Source: an uncultured bacterium (GTDB taxonomy: Bacteria; JAAXHH01). Taken from it: DNA of 37,991 bases. Each line of letters opens with the position of its first letter. Within the stretch, counting starts at the first letter, position 1. The notes beneath the pieces were generated by a model. The model saw only the letters and a program-made list of their open reading frames with translations, ran no database searches and was not told where the DNA came from. Positions 4,432-37,991 of the stretch are shown one piece after another. The position numbers and the translations under genes are program-made. Location of the stretch: contig CAJXCW010000016.1 in the NCBI GenBank assembly GCA_913051705.1, positions 1 through 37,991 on the forward strand, given 5' to 3'.

Positions 4432-5073
4432 GGAACCTGCAGGCCGTCTATCAAAAACCCCCATTTTGCCCGATTTCTCGAGGCCATGAGTTTTTCTCAC
4501 GGGGCTGTATTGAACACATCCCAGGTGGCAAGAGAGTGCCAGGTGGGTCGCAAAACAGTCGAGGGGTATATAGATAATTTAGAGGACTTACTGCTGGGCT
4601 ATAGACTTCAGGTTTTCACTAAACGCGACCGTCGCCATCTACAACACCATCCCAAATTCAACTTTATTGATACGGGGGTATTTCAATCTCTGCGGCCCAA
4701 GGGACCGTTGGACAGCCCGGAGTCTAGCGGAGGACCTGCACTGGAAGGGCTGGTAGCCCAACATCTTCGTGCATAGAATGCCTGTCAGGGTAACACCTGC
4801 GAATTATTTTACTGGCGGACAAAATTAAAAGTAGAGGTTGATTTTGTGATATACGGTCCCGATATCTTCCTGGCTATCGAGGTTAAACATGCCCGTACTA
4901 TTCGACCTCAAGATCTCCGGGGGCTGAAATCTTTTAGTGAGGATTATCCGGAATGCCAAAGGGTGTTGCTTTAACGGGGTACAGAGCCATTGAAAAAAGG
5001 GAACATCCTGTGTCTGCCGTATGAACCATTCCTCCAAAACCTGACTCCCGGCCGGTCTATGTTGAATACATAA
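4432..5073 (+). pseudogene. DUF4143 (AAA_14-type) ATPase C-terminal remnant with two in-frame stops
   Basis: One continuous frame reads NPHFARFLEAMSFSHGAVLN, then a winged-helix-like stretch (TSQVARECQVGRKTVEGYID), then KFNFIDTGVF and ALEGLVAQHLRA, and ends with a PD-(D/E)XK-like segment VEVDFVIYGPD...FLAIEVKHAR. This is the DUF4143 C-terminal half of the large prokaryotic ATP-binding protein family. The frame is broken by TAG at 4774-4776 and TAA at 4972-4974, where relatives usually have Trp and Tyr respectively. Each could therefore be a single-base change. The N-terminal AAA ATPase domain is absent: a stop lies directly upstream and the next gene starts at 4347 on the other strand. It is a clear decayed remnant. 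A REP-like pair follows it. Confidence 0.85.
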
Positions 5074-5100
5074 ATAAGTGATGTTACGCGCAAGACCATG

Positions 5101-5175
5101 TGTCGCCCGCAGCAGCGGGCTCCTACCCTTCAAAGTGCCTGCATATCGTGGTAGGAACTCGCTCCTGCGAGCGAT
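5101..5175. repeat. Pair of inverted REP-like hairpin elements
   Basis: Two short elements face each other. On the minus strand, 5101-5126 reads gtaggagcccgctgctgcgg..., with head GTAGGAG and a stem GCCCGC/GCGGGC around TGCT. On the plus strand, 5151-5174 has head GTAGGAA and stem CTCGC/GCGAG around TCCT. A conserved GTAGGA head next to a GC-rich hairpin is the hallmark of REP sequences mobilised by RAYT transposases, and the inverted pair resembles a BIME. No RAYT gene is in the window. Confidence 0.7.
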
Positions 5176-5221
5176 ATATGCGAAAATACACACGCAGAGG
5201 TCGCATTATACTCCACTCCCT

Positions 5222-19273: not shown

Positions 19274-19694
19274 AACAAGTCCACCCCGGTGCAAAGAGAT
19301 GTTCGTGACGAATTTTATTTCATAACGCCGGTTGTCATAAATTAGACCGGCGCCATAGCAGAACAGTAATCTATACAGGCGCTATGGCCCTGTAAAATAG
19401 GGATAGGCGCAAGATAGAGGGCATAGGCTGGGCTGTCAAGTACGGTTACTGTGGCATGCCAATTGCGCTGGGTGGAATTCAGAGGCCGTTCCGCTCCAGG
19501 CGTGTAGATAAAATACGGGCGGAAGGCCGGAGAGATGGAAGGATGAAACATCCCCTTGGGGTTTCCCTTCCATTACGCCATCCTCCTGTCCTTCCGTCCG
19601 CGTTACTTCGTCCAACCAACACGCCTGTTATATTCCGTTTCATGTAAACCCATCCTGCAGCAACGTCCGCCTGTCGAAACAAGCAGACTATCCC
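19274..19694. other. Intergenic region with GGAAGGATG inverted repeat
   Basis: About 420 bp separate two divergent genes before the M55 promoter. Positions 19519-19600 carry GGAAGG and GATGGAAGGATG words. They are followed by a hairpin (GAAACATCCCC/TTGGGGTTTC) and inverted copies (CTTCCATTACGCCATCCTCC), related to the repeat at 17040-17097. Positions 19342-19551 are open on the minus strand and read somewhat protein-like (YTPGAERPLNSTQRNWHATV), but I cannot assign it. No other gene is apparent. Confidence 0.5.
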
Positions 19695-19778: not shown

Positions 19779-20684
19779 ATGATGAAATTTCAAAAATGGC
19801 TTCTTGCCCTTGTCGTGCTGCTCATCAATACCACAAACACGTATGCGCAGCAGGATAAACTCAAAATCTATATTTCCGTCGACATGGAAGGCGTGGTTGG
19901 GGCGGTGACTGGTGAGCAGCTGGGCCCGGGCGGCTTCGAATATCAGCGGTTTCGTGAATTCATGACGCAGGAGGTCAATGCGGCGATAGAAGCGGCGTTT
20001 GAGGCCGGGGCTACGGAGATACTGGTGAGTGACTCCCACGGTAACGGCCAGAACCTGTTGATCGATAAGATGCCGCGAGGTGTGCAGGTCATCCGCTCCT
20101 GGCCCAGGCACTTCGGTATGATGGCCGGGATCGACGAGACGTTCGATGGGGTTATCTTTTTGGGATATCACGCCAGCACCACCAATCCCGAAGGAGTGCG
20201 CGCGCATACCATATCCAGCGCGCGTCTGGCCGCCGTCAGGCTCAACGGCATGGCCATGCCCGAGGCGGGCATCAATGCGGCAGTTGCCGGGCATTTCAAT
20301 GTGCCGGTAATCATGATATCGGGTGACGACGTCGCGGTCAAGGAAGCGCAGGACCTGATCGGTGATATGGAGGGCGCGGTCGTCAAATGGGCTAATAGTT
20401 TCCACTCGGCCCGCTCCCTTCATCCGGAAGATGCCTACGAACTGATTCGACAAAAGGTAAAAAGGGCCATCGAACGGATCGATCAATTCAAGCCGTATAA
20501 ACTACAGACGCCGATCACACTGGATGTAACCTTTAAAAGTTACCGCCCGTCGCAGGTCATGGCGTTTCTATCTATCGTGGAGCGGACCGATGCACACAGC
20601 ATCAGGTATGTAGGTAAGGACATGGTTGAGGTGTCGGATTTCATGACCTTCGTGACCAGCTATAATATTGCGCTGGAGCCGTAA
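19779..20684 (+). CDS. Secreted M55-family D-aminopeptidase (DppA-like)
   Basis: This is a 301-residue DppA-type zinc peptidase that should release D-amino acids such as D-Ala from peptides, for example during wall turnover. A signal peptide (1-23, WLLALVVLLINTTNTYAQ) predicts export, whereas classic DppA is cytoplasmic. The zinc ligands are present: D35 and E37 in ISVDMEGVV, H87 in SDSHGNG, H131 in LGYHA and E162 in PEAGINAAVAG. Its strong ribosome-binding site AGGAGGA (19767-19773) precedes two adjacent ATG codons, and a consensus-like promoter lies upstream. A broken DUF2059 gene and a murA-like gene follow on the same strand, so the neighbourhood suggests a cell-envelope role. Confidence 0.92.
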   Translation: MMKFQKWLLALVVLLINTTNTYAQQDKLKIYISVDMEGVVGAVTGEQLGPGGFEYQRFREFMTQEVNAAIEAAFEAGATEILVSDSHGNGQNLLIDKMPRGVQVIRSWPRHFGMMAGIDETFDGVIFLGYHASTTNPEGVRAHTISSARLAAVRLNGMAMPEAGINAAVAGHFNVPVIMISGDDVAVKEAQDLIGDMEGAVVKWANSFHSARSLHPEDAYELIRQKVKRAIERIDQFKPYKLQTPITLDVTFKSYRPSQVMAFLSIVERTDAHSIRYVGKDMVEVSDFMTFVTSYNIALEP

Positions 20685-22529: not shown

Positions 22530-24332
22530 CTATCCGATCACTCGCATTGGAATTAGCGGTTTGGATGAGTCTACCTTGAAATCCAGGTTTACCTCCTGCT
22601 CCCCACGACGGAAGACCATTTTGCCGGCCCCATCGGCAGGAGCATCTACACCCGGTGCTTCATAGAGCGGATACGCCTCATAATCCAATATTTCACCATC
22701 TACGCTATGCGGGCCGTCGTAGATTAATTCCAGACGGCGACCGGCCAACGTATCGACCACCACGCGGTCCTGTGTCGGCCAGCCACCGATATCCAGGTGC
22801 GCGGTCGTACGGCGATCACAGAACGTTTCGAATGACTCTATTTCAGACGCTTCGGCAGCTTCGATAATCAAGCCGGCATGTACATCCGGAATGCGCAACA
22901 TCCAGCCGTCTATCTGATTGGGATTATTCGTCAAAAACCGGACCGAACCCGTTTCCCGTATCTCAGTCCATTCGTAGGCGCCAATAGGGCGTAGTGCGAT
23001 GTAGGCTCCTACGCCGGTATCACCCATGATCCAACCGTCCCGCTCGACCCAGGCGATGGTTCTGGGCAGAAACATATTGGCATACGGCGCCTCATCCTCT
23101 TCCGGAATACGATACAGAATAATAGCTGTGCCCTCATGTTGCATCATCTGTTCGTAAGGCGAAGCGCCGAACAGCCGGTCGGGCCATTGAAGATACGGTT
23201 TGTCGGACCCGATCTGATGGCCGATGTTCTGGGGATAACCCACAAGAAACGCGCTGAAACGGTCCGGGCTGCGATATGGATGATTGCAGGTGATTTTACA
23301 CTCCTGATTTTCCCCTTTCCAGGTCAGGTCCCAGGATATCAGATCAATAGGTCCCGACATCGGACCGGGCAGCCCCGTTTGGGTCGTTCCAAGCGCAAAA
23401 GAGGGGCTCATATACGTATATTTACGTACAGGCCGGGCTTCGCGTTCTACGCATCGGTAAAAAGTACGCGGCGCTTTGGTCTTTTTTACCACATGGGGCG
23501 TCGACCGGTCCCAGGCCATTTCAGCAAACAGGGCAGGCGGGCGGTACCGGGCCGTAGTCGCCGGGATGCCGAAGCCGTGGATGTGAATCTGCGAATTGAA
23601 CTCCTCACCGCCGAAGAACATAAATTGTAAGATCGGAATCGCCCCGGAGAACCGCCATGTATTCTCACGATAGCCTTCTCGGCTGTGTCCGCCCGCCCAC
23701 GCGCCATGGAAATATTCCAGGGCCATATCGGCCACATAGAGGGACAGCACTCGTTCTGCCTGTTTTCTTAAATGTGGGTCTTGTGCATGGTCCACCAGGG
23801 CGATCATGGGCACCATATGTTCGATATGATATTGCGGGGAATCGTACTCGTGGTGGCCGTTGACGGCCGTCCGATTGATCATACCCAGTATCCAGCGCAT
23901 GGCTTCGGCCCGCATGGCATCCGGTGGCAGTCCGTTCCATGTGCGGTCCAGGTCCGGCCACATTTCTGCGGCCAGCAGGTTGCCGACATAGTACATCAGC
24001 CAGTGGTTTTCCGTATTGCCCCGTTCCAGGACACCTTCGGTCATGAATTCTTTGATGATGGCCATGGCATCATCCGGCATTTTATCCGGCCACCGGCAGG
24101 CCAGGGCCATGCAGGGAAAGATCTGAAACGGGCCACCTGTAGGCCGCCCGTTCGGACCGTCGGTCCGCAGGTTGAGGCCGTTCTTAACGATATCTACGAT
24201 GTGATCGTGATGTTGATCTTTGGCTAATAAAACATGGGCATCCCAGAGCCCGCGCCCCCCCTGTTCCGCTTTGTAATCGATAATCTGTTTTGCCCGGGCA
24301 TCCACCTGCGCCCGGTAGGCATCCTGCGTCAT
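22530..24332 (-). CDS. Probable (alpha/alpha)-toroid plus beta-sandwich protein, lyase-like
   Basis: I cannot name this 600-residue protein. The N-terminal 280 residues are helical and carry phrases common in (alpha/alpha)-toroid polysaccharide lyases and related uncharacterised proteins: GNTENHWLMYYVGNLLAAEM, GHHEYDSPQYHIEHMVPMI (Asn/His/Tyr-rich, suggestive of an active site) and WAGGHSREGYRENTWRFSG. The C-terminal half is beta-rich. There is no obvious signal peptide. The start at 24332 is firm: AGGAGG lies 7 bp before the ATG, and the ATG overlaps the TGA of the upstream BNR-propeller gene (ATGA), indicating translational coupling. A heparinase- or alginate-lyase-like role in glycan breakdown is plausible but unproven. 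Confidence 0.7.
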   Translation of the reverse strand: MTQDAYRAQVDARAKQIIDYKAEQGGRGLWDAHVLLAKDQHHDHIVDIVKNGLNLRTDGPNGRPTGGPFQIFPCMALACRWPDKMPDDAMAIIKEFMTEGVLERGNTENHWLMYYVGNLLAAEMWPDLDRTWNGLPPDAMRAEAMRWILGMINRTAVNGHHEYDSPQYHIEHMVPMIALVDHAQDPHLRKQAERVLSLYVADMALEYFHGAWAGGHSREGYRENTWRFSGAIPILQFMFFGGEEFNSQIHIHGFGIPATTARYRPPALFAEMAWDRSTPHVVKKTKAPRTFYRCVEREARPVRKYTYMSPSFALGTTQTGLPGPMSGPIDLISWDLTWKGENQECKITCNHPYRSPDRFSAFLVGYPQNIGHQIGSDKPYLQWPDRLFGASPYEQMMQHEGTAIILYRIPEEDEAPYANMFLPRTIAWVERDGWIMGDTGVGAYIALRPIGAYEWTEIRETGSVRFLTNNPNQIDGWMLRIPDVHAGLIIEAAEASEIESFETFCDRRTTAHLDIGGWPTQDRVVVDTLAGRRLELIYDGPHSVDGEILDYEAYPLYEAPGVDAPADGAGKMVFRRGEQEVNLDFKVDSSKPLIPMRVIG

Positions 24333-25204
24333 ACGAGTCCTCCTTCTGGTGGTAAAATTGCCTGCACATGGACAAATCCTTCTATCTGCCGCCAGGTATG
24401 CCCGGCATCTTCCGTAGACCAGAGGCCGCCCGGGGTGGCACCCGCCATCCACACATTCGGCTTATCAGGATGTACAGCTACAGCCGCGCATAGCATCCGT
24501 GGACCGGATTGACGCCAGTAGCCTGATTCGTCGCCTACCGTCACTCCATGTACGGTCGCTGCGACCATAGAACCATTGCAGGCAGCCAGATCGTATATAG
24601 CCCCCCCGTCCTTCGAATGTCCGGCGGCGTTCCAGGTCAACCCATCGGCACTGTGCCACACGCCCCGATCATCCGTACCGGCCCAGAACAGGTCGTGGGC
24701 GTAAGTCAGGGCGCGCACTGGTGTGCCGATGAGGCTGCTACGAGTCCATCGGGCGCCGCCGTCCTCCGCGATTAAGACGCCGGCCTCCGTACCGATCAAC
24801 CATCGAGAACTATCTGCCGGATCAATCTGTATCGCATTGGTAAACCGCTCGTTGACATTCAACGTGTCTGAAAGATGGGTCCACCGCACAGCACCTGTGT
24901 CGTCGCGTCGGCCTGTCGAAATGCTGAACGACGAACCGGCGACCACACCGGGATCACCATCAATTGAAGCGACGGCCATGACTTCGGTAAGCGTTTCATC
25001 GTGCAACTGTTTCCAGTATCCAGCCTGATGCGGCCATTCCCAGAGGCCGCTGCCCTGACAGGCGCCGGCCACGAGCCGTTCCGGCTCTCGAAGCAGGCTG
25101 GAAATGCCGGACGAAAGAGACCCCACGCGTGTCCAGGCGCCGCCAATGACACCGTGATACAATCCTTTTGAACCAATCAACCAATCCTGTTGCCAGGTAG
25201 GCAT
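24329..25204 (-). CDS. BNR/sialidase-type beta-propeller protein
   Basis: This 291-residue protein is built from BNR-type blades, seen as repeated GxWxSxDGGxxW-like units: GVLIAEDGGARWTRSSL, GVWHSADGLTWNAAG and GLWSTEDAGHTWRQIEG, with intervening WLIGTEAG, WAGTDDRG and WMAGATPG strands. Such propellers bind or act on glycans or simply scaffold. Catalytic sialidase residues are not evident, and there is no signal peptide. The ATG has GGAG 7 bp upstream. Its stop overlaps the start of the toroid protein by 4 bp, so the two are coupled. The shared translation suggests a joint role, but neither sequence reveals the substrate. Confidence 0.75.
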   Translation of the reverse strand: MPTWQQDWLIGSKGLYHGVIGGAWTRVGSLSSGISSLLREPERLVAGACQGSGLWEWPHQAGYWKQLHDETLTEVMAVASIDGDPGVVAGSSFSISTGRRDDTGAVRWTHLSDTLNVNERFTNAIQIDPADSSRWLIGTEAGVLIAEDGGARWTRSSLIGTPVRALTYAHDLFWAGTDDRGVWHSADGLTWNAAGHSKDGGAIYDLAACNGSMVAATVHGVTVGDESGYWRQSGPRMLCAAVAVHPDKPNVWMAGATPGGLWSTEDAGHTWRQIEGFVHVQAILPPEGGLV

Positions 25205-35087: not shown

Positions 35088-35993
35088 TCAGGGCTTGATT
35101 GATGAGGGCAGCGCCATCCGAATGGCCGCTGGTACCACACACACATCCAGCACGGCTTTGCCGGGCACCTCATCGCCATCCACCTGTAGCGGTACAGGGT
35201 TGTTCCGTTCTATTTGTACCCTGTGCGTTCGAAGCATTCGTACCCCCGGCATCCGGTCGATTGTGCCGGTCAGCAATCGCCGGCTGTGCCAGAGCAACTG
35301 CAGGAAGCCGGGGTCCTCAACGATACACAGATCCAGCCATCCGTCGTCGGGCCTTGCGGCCGGGGCGATTTGGATACCGTAACCGTACTGAGCGGTATTA
35401 GCCACGGTCAGGATGATAGGTCGTATCTGTAAGTCGCTTTCCTCTTCAAGGGTAATTCGGACAGGCTCCGGGGTGTAGTTCCGATAGGTATCCAGTGTTA
35501 AACAGGCGTAGGTCAGCAGGCCATGACGATTACCCTGCATCTCGTTGTACCGGCGGCTGACTTCCACCTCCAAACCTGTACCTGCCGTACAAAAAAATAT
35601 ATCGTCTCCGATTTTCCCCACATCTATCGGCCGGACGTCGGCCTGAAGCAAGGCGCTGCACGCCCGTTTCGGGTCGAGGGAGATGCCCTGCGACCGGCCG
35701 AAGCCGTTTCCCGATCCGCAGGGCAGCAATCCCAGTATCGTCTCCCTTTCCAGCAGACCTTTCCCCACTTCATTCAGCATGCCATCGCCGCCCACGGCCA
35801 CGACAAGCTCAATGCCGTCATCTGCTGCAAGCCGGGCTAATTCTGTGGCGTGTCCCCGGTGTTCGGTGCGGATGATGTCAAACACAATGCCCGTACCACC
35901 CAGAACCTGACGGATGGTTGTTTCCACGTCTCCACGCCGGTTTCCCGCTCTGGGATTGACGATAAATCGCATGTTTGAAAATTGGTCCGGCAT
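35088..35993 (-). CDS. Diacylglycerol kinase-family lipid kinase
   Basis: This 301-residue DAGK-catalytic-domain protein is of the YegS/DgkB/BmrU type. NPRAGNRRGD at about 13 and VVAVGGDGMLNEV (64-76) form the nucleotide-binding GGDG motif, PCGSGNGFGRS (about 91) is the second conserved loop, and the C-terminal beta-sandwich ends with LQVDGDEV. It should phosphorylate a lipid alcohol at the membrane with ATP. The usual GTGND(F/L)AR loop reads GSGNGFGRS, as in sphingosine-kinase-like relatives. There are no partner genes. The ATG at 35993 has a weak ribosome-binding site. An internal Met8 is the alternative start. Confidence 0.92.
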   Translation of the reverse strand: MPDQFSNMRFIVNPRAGNRRGDVETTIRQVLGGTGIVFDIIRTEHRGHATELARLAADDGIELVVAVGGDGMLNEVGKGLLERETILGLLPCGSGNGFGRSQGISLDPKRACSALLQADVRPIDVGKIGDDIFFCTAGTGLEVEVSRRYNEMQGNRHGLLTYACLTLDTYRNYTPEPVRITLEEESDLQIRPIILTVANTAQYGYGIQIAPAARPDDGWLDLCIVEDPGFLQLLWHSRRLLTGTIDRMPGVRMLRTHRVQIERNNPVPLQVDGDEVPGKAVLDVCVVPAAIRMALPSSIKP

Positions 35994-36125
35994 GCTTCTG
36001 TCCGTTTTGTGTCAATGTTTGCTAACAAGAGTTACCAGGATTAGAGGATGTTTATCGTGGACTTCTGTAAATAATAACATCATAAACAAGTGTTAACTGC
36101 CGATTTGAAAAAAATCACCGTTTTC

Positions 36126-36141
36126 TGGCATAAAGCTTGCA
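36126..36141 (+). promoter_or_regulatory. Sigma-54 (-24/-12) promoter
   Basis: TGGCATAAAGCTTGCA matches the sigma-54 consensus TGGCAC-N5-TTGCW with one mismatch. The invariant GG (36127-36128) and GC (36139-36140) are exactly 10 bp apart. It faces the small membrane-protein gene, giving a leader of about 55-60 nt. The upstream 130 bp is AT-rich with imperfect inverted words (GTTAAC, TGTTTATGATGTTATTA) that could hold activator sites. Confidence 0.75.
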
Positions 36142-36210
36142 TTAGAAACGAATAGGTACCGATAACTATTTAGTCACCCATCAAGGATAAATCAACAATA
36201 AAGGGACATC

Positions 36211-36567
36211 ATGAAACGCTCAATTTTAATACTGGCCATCATGTTTGGTTCAATTACAGACCATGTTTATGCAGAGGTACGAAAGGTTTTGTTGGTTATA
36301 GGGCTGGTAGGCGTTGGGGCTATCGTTGTTGATGCCAGTATGACGGCCTGGGATATCGGGATGCTTCAGGGAGGTCAACGGGCGTCCCGCCGTCACGGTA
36401 TTTTTGAAACGGCGTTTGCTTTGCCCCAGACCCTTATCTTTACGGGGTTGGCGAGATCGTCGTCTGACGACAATAAACCCCTACACCTTGCCGTGTGGGC
36501 GGCCGCATTAACTACACACGGTATATGGCCATTCTGTCCGCTGACGCCAAGGCAGATCTCAGCATGA
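36211..36567 (+). CDS. Small predicted membrane protein, sigma-54-controlled
   Basis: I do not recognise this 118-residue protein. It begins with a signal peptide or membrane anchor (SILILAIMFGSITDHVYA), followed by a strong hydrophobic segment (VLLVIGLVGVGAIVVDASM), then GMLQGGQRASRRHGIFETAF and a weaker hydrophobic stretch (LAVWAAALTTHGIW). AAAGGGA stands before the ATG, and a near-consensus sigma-54 promoter lies upstream. After HGIW a shift of one base would continue ILSADAKADLSMKK to a TAA at 36573-36575, so the C-terminus may be frameshifted. It is divergent from the eroded NtrC-type regulator, which may once have controlled it. Confidence 0.6.
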   Translation: MKRSILILAIMFGSITDHVYAEVRKVLLVIGLVGVGAIVVDASMTAWDIGMLQGGQRASRRHGIFETAFALPQTLIFTGLARSSSDDNKPLHLAVWAAALTTHGIWPFCPLTPRQISA

Positions 36568-36661
36568 AGAAATAAAAGAGGTTTGACATCCGGGTAGCAC
36601 CGACGGTCATTCCATCGTCATCTGGATCAATGGGGATGGGCTTCGGGCTTAACATACGTTT

Positions 36662-37039
36662 TCAGGATGGAAACAGGACACAGGGGGGTTGCCGACAGAT
36701 TCTATTATACCTCTTCACGCACACGGGGCCGGAAGGATTCCACATACCGCGTTCCACCACATTGCGGAGTTCCCGGACATTGCCGGGATAATCGTAGCTT
36801 AACAGCAGCGCTTGCACGTCTTCTGAGAATGGATTGAATTGAAGACCCCTGCGGGTCGCGTAAAGGGAGAGAAAATGCGTTGCCAGCGGGAGGATGTCTT
36901 CCTGCCGGTCCCGTAGCGGAGAGAGATGAATTGTATATAGGTTGAGTCGGTACATCAAATCGCTGCGGAACGTGCCGGCTTCAACCAGATCCTCCAGCAC
37001 TCTGTTGGTGGCGGCCACGACCCGGACCTCCACGGTCAT
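36662..37039 (-). pseudogene. NtrC-type regulator, C-terminal AAA+ half (out of frame)
   Basis: The frame starts TVEVRVVAATNR and continues EDLVEAGTFRSDLMYRLNLY, LSPLRDRQEDILPLATHFL and YDYPGNVRELRNVVERG, the post-Walker-B half of a sigma-54 interaction domain (sensor I, Arg finger region, sensor II). The preceding receiver frame stops at the junction. After NVVER the sequence no longer matches the family: the expected linker and FIS-type DNA-binding helix are absent. In a neighbouring frame YVESFRPRVREEV ends at TAA 36705-36707, possibly the original C-terminus brought closer by a second deletion. Confidence 0.85.
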
Positions 37040-37605
37040 CTCCTTCTCACCACCTCTTTGCCTGTACCCGTATCTCCGGTGATTAAAATGGTATCACAGG
37101 CCGCCTCCACCGCCTGCTGGATCTGGTCGGCGACCTGCTTTATGGCGGTGCCGGCGCCAATCAGGCTACGATTTCCCACGGAAGTCTGGATCCGGCCTAC
37201 CGTCTCGCGCAGGAGGCGTTTTTCCCTGCGAAGCCCCTGGAGTCTAACCGCTTTCTCCAGCACCGCATCCAACTCCAACAGTTTAATGGGCTTGGTCAGA
37301 AAATCCGCCGCGCCGAGGCGTAGCGCCTGAACGGCGGTATCCATATTGCCATGACCAGTGATGATGACCACAGACAGGTCCGGATGATCCGCCTGCACAC
37401 GGGAGAGGAGAGACAAACCGTCCATACCCGGCATACGGATGTCGGTCAGGACGAGATCCCACTCATTGTTCTGAATCATCGTGATCCCTTCCGCGCCGGT
37501 TTGAGCGTCGCCTACCCGATGTCCTGATTCACGGAGATAATCGCCGATGGTCTGATGGACGATGTCTTCATCATCTATGAGAAGAATATCGAGATGCTGA
37601 TCCAT
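37036..37605 (-). pseudogene. NtrC-type response regulator, receiver plus truncated AAA+ start
   Basis: The 189-codon frame holds a complete receiver domain: D11/D12 (LLIDDED), phosphoacceptor D55 (VLTDIRMPGMDG), T83 and K105 (FLTKPIK). A linker and the beginning of the AAA+ domain up to Walker A (GDTGTGKEVV) follow, then RRR and a stop. The about 130 residues with GAFTGA and Walker B are missing, and the next half (36662-37039) is in another frame. ATP hydrolysis and sigma-54 contact are impossible as encoded, although an isolated phosphorylatable receiver could still be made. GGAGT precedes the ATG, and the kinase relic ends 2 bp upstream. Confidence 0.88.
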
Positions 37606-37607
37606 CG

Positions 37608-37930
37608 TTAGGACTCCTTGTCAGATGGGTTTTGATCGGTCTGTTGAGGCCCAGGAGACTGATTGTGATGGCCGTCATGGCGCAACCATAGGCGGCCATA
37701 TCTCCCACCCGATGCCTGGAAGAGGTTTGCCTACTCAACAGATAGAGGGAAATGCCGAGGAGAGAAAGGATCAGCGCGTTTCCACCCGGCATAATTCCCG
37801 ATGAAATCCGGGTGATGGAAGTGAGGCCAATCCCTTCCACCACGGCAAATCAGCCACTGATCAAACCGGCAACAGCCGTGATTCGAGCTATGGTTATATA
37901 TGAATTGATAAGACCAGGTTTGGAAGACAT
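37608..37930 (-). pseudogene. Membrane sensor (histidine kinase) remnant with internal TGA and deletion
   Basis: From an ATG at 37930 the frame reads SSKPGLINSYITIARITAVA, GLISG, then TGA at 37850-37852 where Trp is likely, then FAVVEGIGLTSITRISSGIM, PGGNALILSLLGISLYLLSR and AAYGCAMTAITISLLGL. This is the multi-helix N-terminus seen in PAS-type membrane histidine kinases (compare M-x-PNTALCFLLxGLALWL). After that, another frame reads LQQTDQNPSDKES and ends at TAA 37608-37610, 2 bp before the regulator ATG, like the tail of a kinase gene. The whole PAS/HisKA/HATPase body is gone. Kinase identity is inferred from position and this pattern. Confidence 0.65.
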
Positions 37931-37933
37931 GGG

Positions 37934-37991
37934 GATTGAAATTGGTGATTGATGCCGCTCCGCTTCGCTCGCTGTCCTTATTGGTGATGGC
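37934..37991. repeat. GGTGATT repeat copy at the window edge
   Basis: GATTGAAATTGGTGATTGATG and TTATTGGTGATGG, separated by a GC-rich CGCTCCGCTTCGCTCGC stretch. It lies just upstream of the sensor remnant in the same relation to the gene as the copies before the IPNS-like and thioesterase genes. It continues past the window end. Confidence 0.7.

Follow-up and report, generated by a model that had tools for sequence, protein, structure and literature searches.

Promoters of the Salmonella RpoN regulon carry a TGGCAT-N5-TTGCA core with GG-N10-GC spacing, are intergenic and lie about 70 nt before a start codon (PMC3844500). In PrsK/PrsR systems with PEP-CTERM genes, the sigma-54 site stands on average about 71 nt before the start codon (PMC1569441). 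Activators of the NtrC/AtoC/NtrX type are built from a receiver, an AAA+ domain and a Fis-type HTH. The locus analyzed here lies in a 37,991-nt stretch of DNA (the window) and resembles all three. Its sigma-54 element has the core, the spacing, the intergenic position and the distance of the Salmonella promoters, and is close to the hypA site TGGCATAAATATTGCT given in that study; however, no working activator is identified, no upstream activator site is recognisable and the target is an orphan. With PrsK/PrsR it shares the distance of the site and an NtrC-type regulator with, probably, a membrane kinase, but the regulator is closer to AtoC/NtrX and the 118-aa protein lacks a PEP-CTERM motif, none being seen on reading. 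Compared with regulators of the NtrC/AtoC/NtrX type, the receiver, linker, Walker A, sensor I, arginine-finger region and lid can still be made out, whereas 268 nt have been lost from the centre, the HTH is missing and the frame is broken. According to our analysis, the locus is likely a genuine sigma-54 promoter, now orphaned, beside a decayed two-component operon (Table 1).

Table 1. Position and character of the features around the putative sigma-54 promoter (window coordinates)
Feature	Position	Strand	Sequence	Observation
YegS/diacylglycerol-kinase-like gene, intact	35088–35993	-		DAGK_cat 5.4e-30, YegS_C 1e-26
Putative sigma-54 (-24/-12) promoter core	36126–36141	+	TGGCATAAAGCTTGCA	Exact motif match and matrix score
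Orphan 118-aa ORF	36211–36567	+		Open reading frame; no homologue, no domain
Regulator pseudogene, 3' part	36662–37054	-		AAA+ end (positions ~123–168), lid, then out of register
Deletion junction	37041–37048	-	GGTGGTG/AGAAGG	268 nt missing compared with the orthologue
Regulator pseudogene, 5' part	37036–37605	-		Receiver domain intact (Response_reg, PF00072, 2.4e-30), linker, Walker A (GDTGTGKE)
Membrane-protein remnant	37606–37991	-		Hydrophobic segments, in-frame TGA at ~37852; six-frame reading

The sequence-only reading had described an exact sigma-54 promoter, the only such site noticed, upstream of a 118-aa gene. Its GG-N10-GC spacing was borne out: GG at -24 (36127–36128) and GC at -12 (36139–36140) are separated by 10 nt in a TGGCAY/TTGCW context, and the ATG of the open reading frame, present as described, follows 69 nt after the element. 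The word "exact" holds for the TGGCAY/TTGCW core and not for the longer TGGCACG-N4-TTGCW, from which the element differs at two positions. No other stretch of the window matches TGGCAYN5TTGCW exactly, although a weaker sigma-54-like site of 16.3 bits, TGGCATGCCAATTGCG, stands at 19452–19467 (+), within an intergenic gap of 484 nt that lies upstream of the gene at 19779. With a matrix made from 24 published intergenic Salmonella sites (ChIP study, PMC3844500), the element scored 19.3 bits, the best in the window and inside the range of leave-one-out scores of those 24 sites (12.2–22.8). Its surroundings are A+T-rich, and its orientation to the ATG is correct. An Rfam search of the whole window gave no match. 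From motif, score and setting, we infer promoter function and consider the element most likely to be a genuine sigma-54 promoter.

The product of the 118-aa ORF has a hydrophobic N-terminal signal or anchor region and further hydrophobic stretches by hydropathy. Searches of 59 genomes, of plasmids and of IMG/VR viral contigs gave no homologue, 14 genomes of the family gave no orthologue at E values up to 10, and no family was matched in Pfam, NCBIfam or PHROGs. The sole match in GTDB contigs (L033) falls in another frame of an acyl-CoA ligase-like gene and was rejected. A single-sequence AlphaFold model (mean pLDDT 63) contains one long N-terminal helix and was too weak for a fold search. Given its poor coding statistics (codon score -1.4, against a lowest value of 2.6 and a 5% point of 18.4 for 118-codon segments of real genes in the window) and its lack of relatives, there may be no gene there for the promoter to serve. 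The hydrophobic composition may explain part of the low score.

The second claim of the sequence-only reading, that the neighbouring NtrC-type regulator has lost its GAFTGA/Walker B core, was upheld. The match to Sigma54_activat (PF00158) covers positions 1 to about 40 and continues directly, in another frame, with positions ~123–168 and the lid; positions ~41–122, the region holding GAFTGA and Walker B, are absent. In an alignment with its orthologue from a different genus of the family (G001:C155, L054), the regulator has 5 nt at the junction and the orthologue 273 nt, a loss of 268 nt which removes both motifs and shifts the frame. The two sides of the junction sequence GAGGTGGTGAGAAGGAG, the left giving GKEVV and the right GGEKEM, share GGTGGTG, and this microhomology suggests that the loss was probably a slipped deletion between short repeats. 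The Fis-type HTH is absent from the 36662–37039 frame, whereas the G001 orthologue, by reading, keeps it. No intact copy of the regulator was found elsewhere in the genome, where the next best match reaches 32%. Its sequence marks the NtrC-type regulator gene as a genuine pseudogene. A PrsR-type identity was not favoured: the fragments scored 92.9 and 81.2 bits with the PrsR model TIGR02915 against a cut-off of 502.6, which is not decisive alone for such short fragments, and the AtoC and NtrX models scored higher than TIGR02915 on them.

Upstream of the regulator, the membrane-protein remnant matched no family above cut-off in Pfam or NCBIfam and had no convincing homologue among the family genomes, and no HisKA or HATPase domain was found between its hydrophobic segments and the regulator start. 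We infer that it is probably the former partner histidine kinase of the regulator.

The G001 orthologue, 65% identical in the receiver domain, also carries lesions: its frame shifts near L054:1860 and is interrupted by a TAG at ~2537, and it has evidently been broken independently of the regulator described here. NG86 estimates between the two gave dN 0.24 and dS 1.65 in the receiver and dN 0.26 and dS 1.42 in the ATPase end. These estimated rates (dN 0.24–0.26, dS 1.4–1.7) show that the regulator was long under selection before it decayed. Among the matches listed, response-regulator genes with internal stops occurred in this genome (G000) and in G001, whereas the listed matches from the third genus, with its twelve genomes, included none. 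Such decay therefore seems common and ongoing in the G000 and G001 lineages. Elsewhere in the window, adjacent open frames at 22530–25204 and 4486–5193 resemble split or truncated genes.

In the reading that we prefer, sigma-54 RNA polymerase would sit at the element as a closed complex, and transcription is predicted to start at about 36152, giving a leader of about 59 nt before the 118-aa ORF. The NtrC-type gene, probably together with the kinase upstream of it, is a decaying two-component operon. Its regulator product has no GAFTGA with which to contact sigma-54, no Walker B for ATP hydrolysis and no HTH for binding DNA. With these three losses, the promoter would be orphaned, and silent unless another activator of the genome acts in trans. 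The intact rpoN, the other activators of the genome and the exact sites in its relatives, all described below, also speak for this reading. The locus is then a case of ordinary gene decay and of no new kind of control.

A tentative alternative, which we hold possible, is that the 118-aa ORF was the true target of the adjacent two-component system and that promoter and gene are decaying with it. The ORF and the regulator are adjacent, and the motif fits a target of a sigma-54 activator. For the final stretch of the ORF, the codon score is -12.3 in the frame of the ORF and rises to 2.8 in a different one, which makes the last ~18 codons doubtful and a frameshift near 36520 possible, so that the length of the ORF may itself result from a frameshift. 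However, the regulator, which had been called divergent, is convergent with the ORF: the two genes lie tail to tail, with facing 3' ends at 36662 and 36567, and it is the YegS-like lipid kinase gene that diverges from the promoter element. Moreover, no such ORF occurs beside the G001 orthologue or anywhere in G001, and no sigma-54 site was found in the 9 kb read around that orthologue, even with one mismatch allowed. Since the genes are convergent and neither ORF nor site accompanies the orthologue, the implied pairing of activator and target is unsupported; the regulator may once have served this promoter.

It could also be, although we find this doubtful, that the promoter is live, that the 118-aa protein belongs to a sigma-54 regulon of the family driven in trans, and that the dead regulator is irrelevant. 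As the genes are convergent, their adjacency counts for little. An intact rpoN is present in this genome on G000:C46, so its absence can no longer be held against the promoter, and 12 of the 14 family genomes, covering all three genera, carry the gene. A second, frame-broken copy (G000:C194:8057–8528; L002, L003) has its DNA-binding domain split over two frames. Another activator had been suggested as a possible driver, and at least four complete Sigma54_activat domains, besides partial ones, are indeed encoded on other contigs of this genome. Exact sites stand in the relatives G001 and G002 upstream of the genes for Lon (L107, L122), Hsp20 (L111, L120), GroEL (L117) and TonB receptors (L108, L121 and L114, the last immediately after an activator). 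This genome has one such site ahead of a TonB-receptor gene that follows an activator (C126), and another ahead of an HlyD-type gene that is transcribed divergently from an activator (C32). The presence of rpoN, complete activators and these sites indicates that sigma-54 is in use in the family. No activator gene is listed within ~600 bp of the Lon, Hsp20 and GroEL sites in the relatives, and many predicted sigma-54 targets in this lineage are without an adjacent activator gene. For Lon, Hsp20 and carboxypeptidase-like/TonB receptors, exact -24/-12 sites were found upstream in at least two genera (loci including L029). A conserved sigma-54 regulon of proteostasis and outer-membrane genes is suggested by predicted sites in the family. 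Against a live promoter for the 118-aa ORF stand its lack of an orthologue, its weak codon usage and the absence of any clear palindromic activator site with strict arms in 35994–36125. A fuller version, in which a genus-specific small membrane protein was recruited into the conserved proteostasis and outer-membrane regulon, outlived the adjacent two-component system and is controlled in trans by another activator, strikes us as rather improbable.

That the -24/-12 match arose by chance and that the 118-aa ORF is not a gene appears unlikely. Scanning the whole genome for further -24/-12 sites gave 13 exact ones in total, several of them within coding sequence, while the control, the same pattern reversed, matched 6 times; some exact matches must thus be due to chance, and a single site is not provable. 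In addition, the codon score of the ORF falls under that of every real gene segment tested. On the other hand, dinucleotide shuffles of the window contained on average only 0.06 exact TGGCAYN5TTGCW matches, with one in 6 of 100 shuffles, and the distance and orientation to the ATG, the A+T-rich intergenic setting and the matrix score all argue for a real promoter.

The suggestion that the assembly has lost sequence and that the organism itself still has an intact activator can draw on a fragmented assembly (405 contigs) and on the position of the region at a contig end, but it is very improbable given several independent lesions of different kinds within one operon (central deletion, missing HTH, in-frame TGA), a junction homology of only ~7 nt, too short for k-mer collapse, and different lesions in the sister-genus orthologue.

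Taken alone, a single predicted sigma-54 promoter and the decayed two-component operon next to it are of small weight. The locus does illustrate that lying next to a sigma-54 site is no proof that an activator serves it. The more useful outcome is the finding of predicted sigma-54 sites before chaperone, protease and TonB-receptor genes in a poorly described family.
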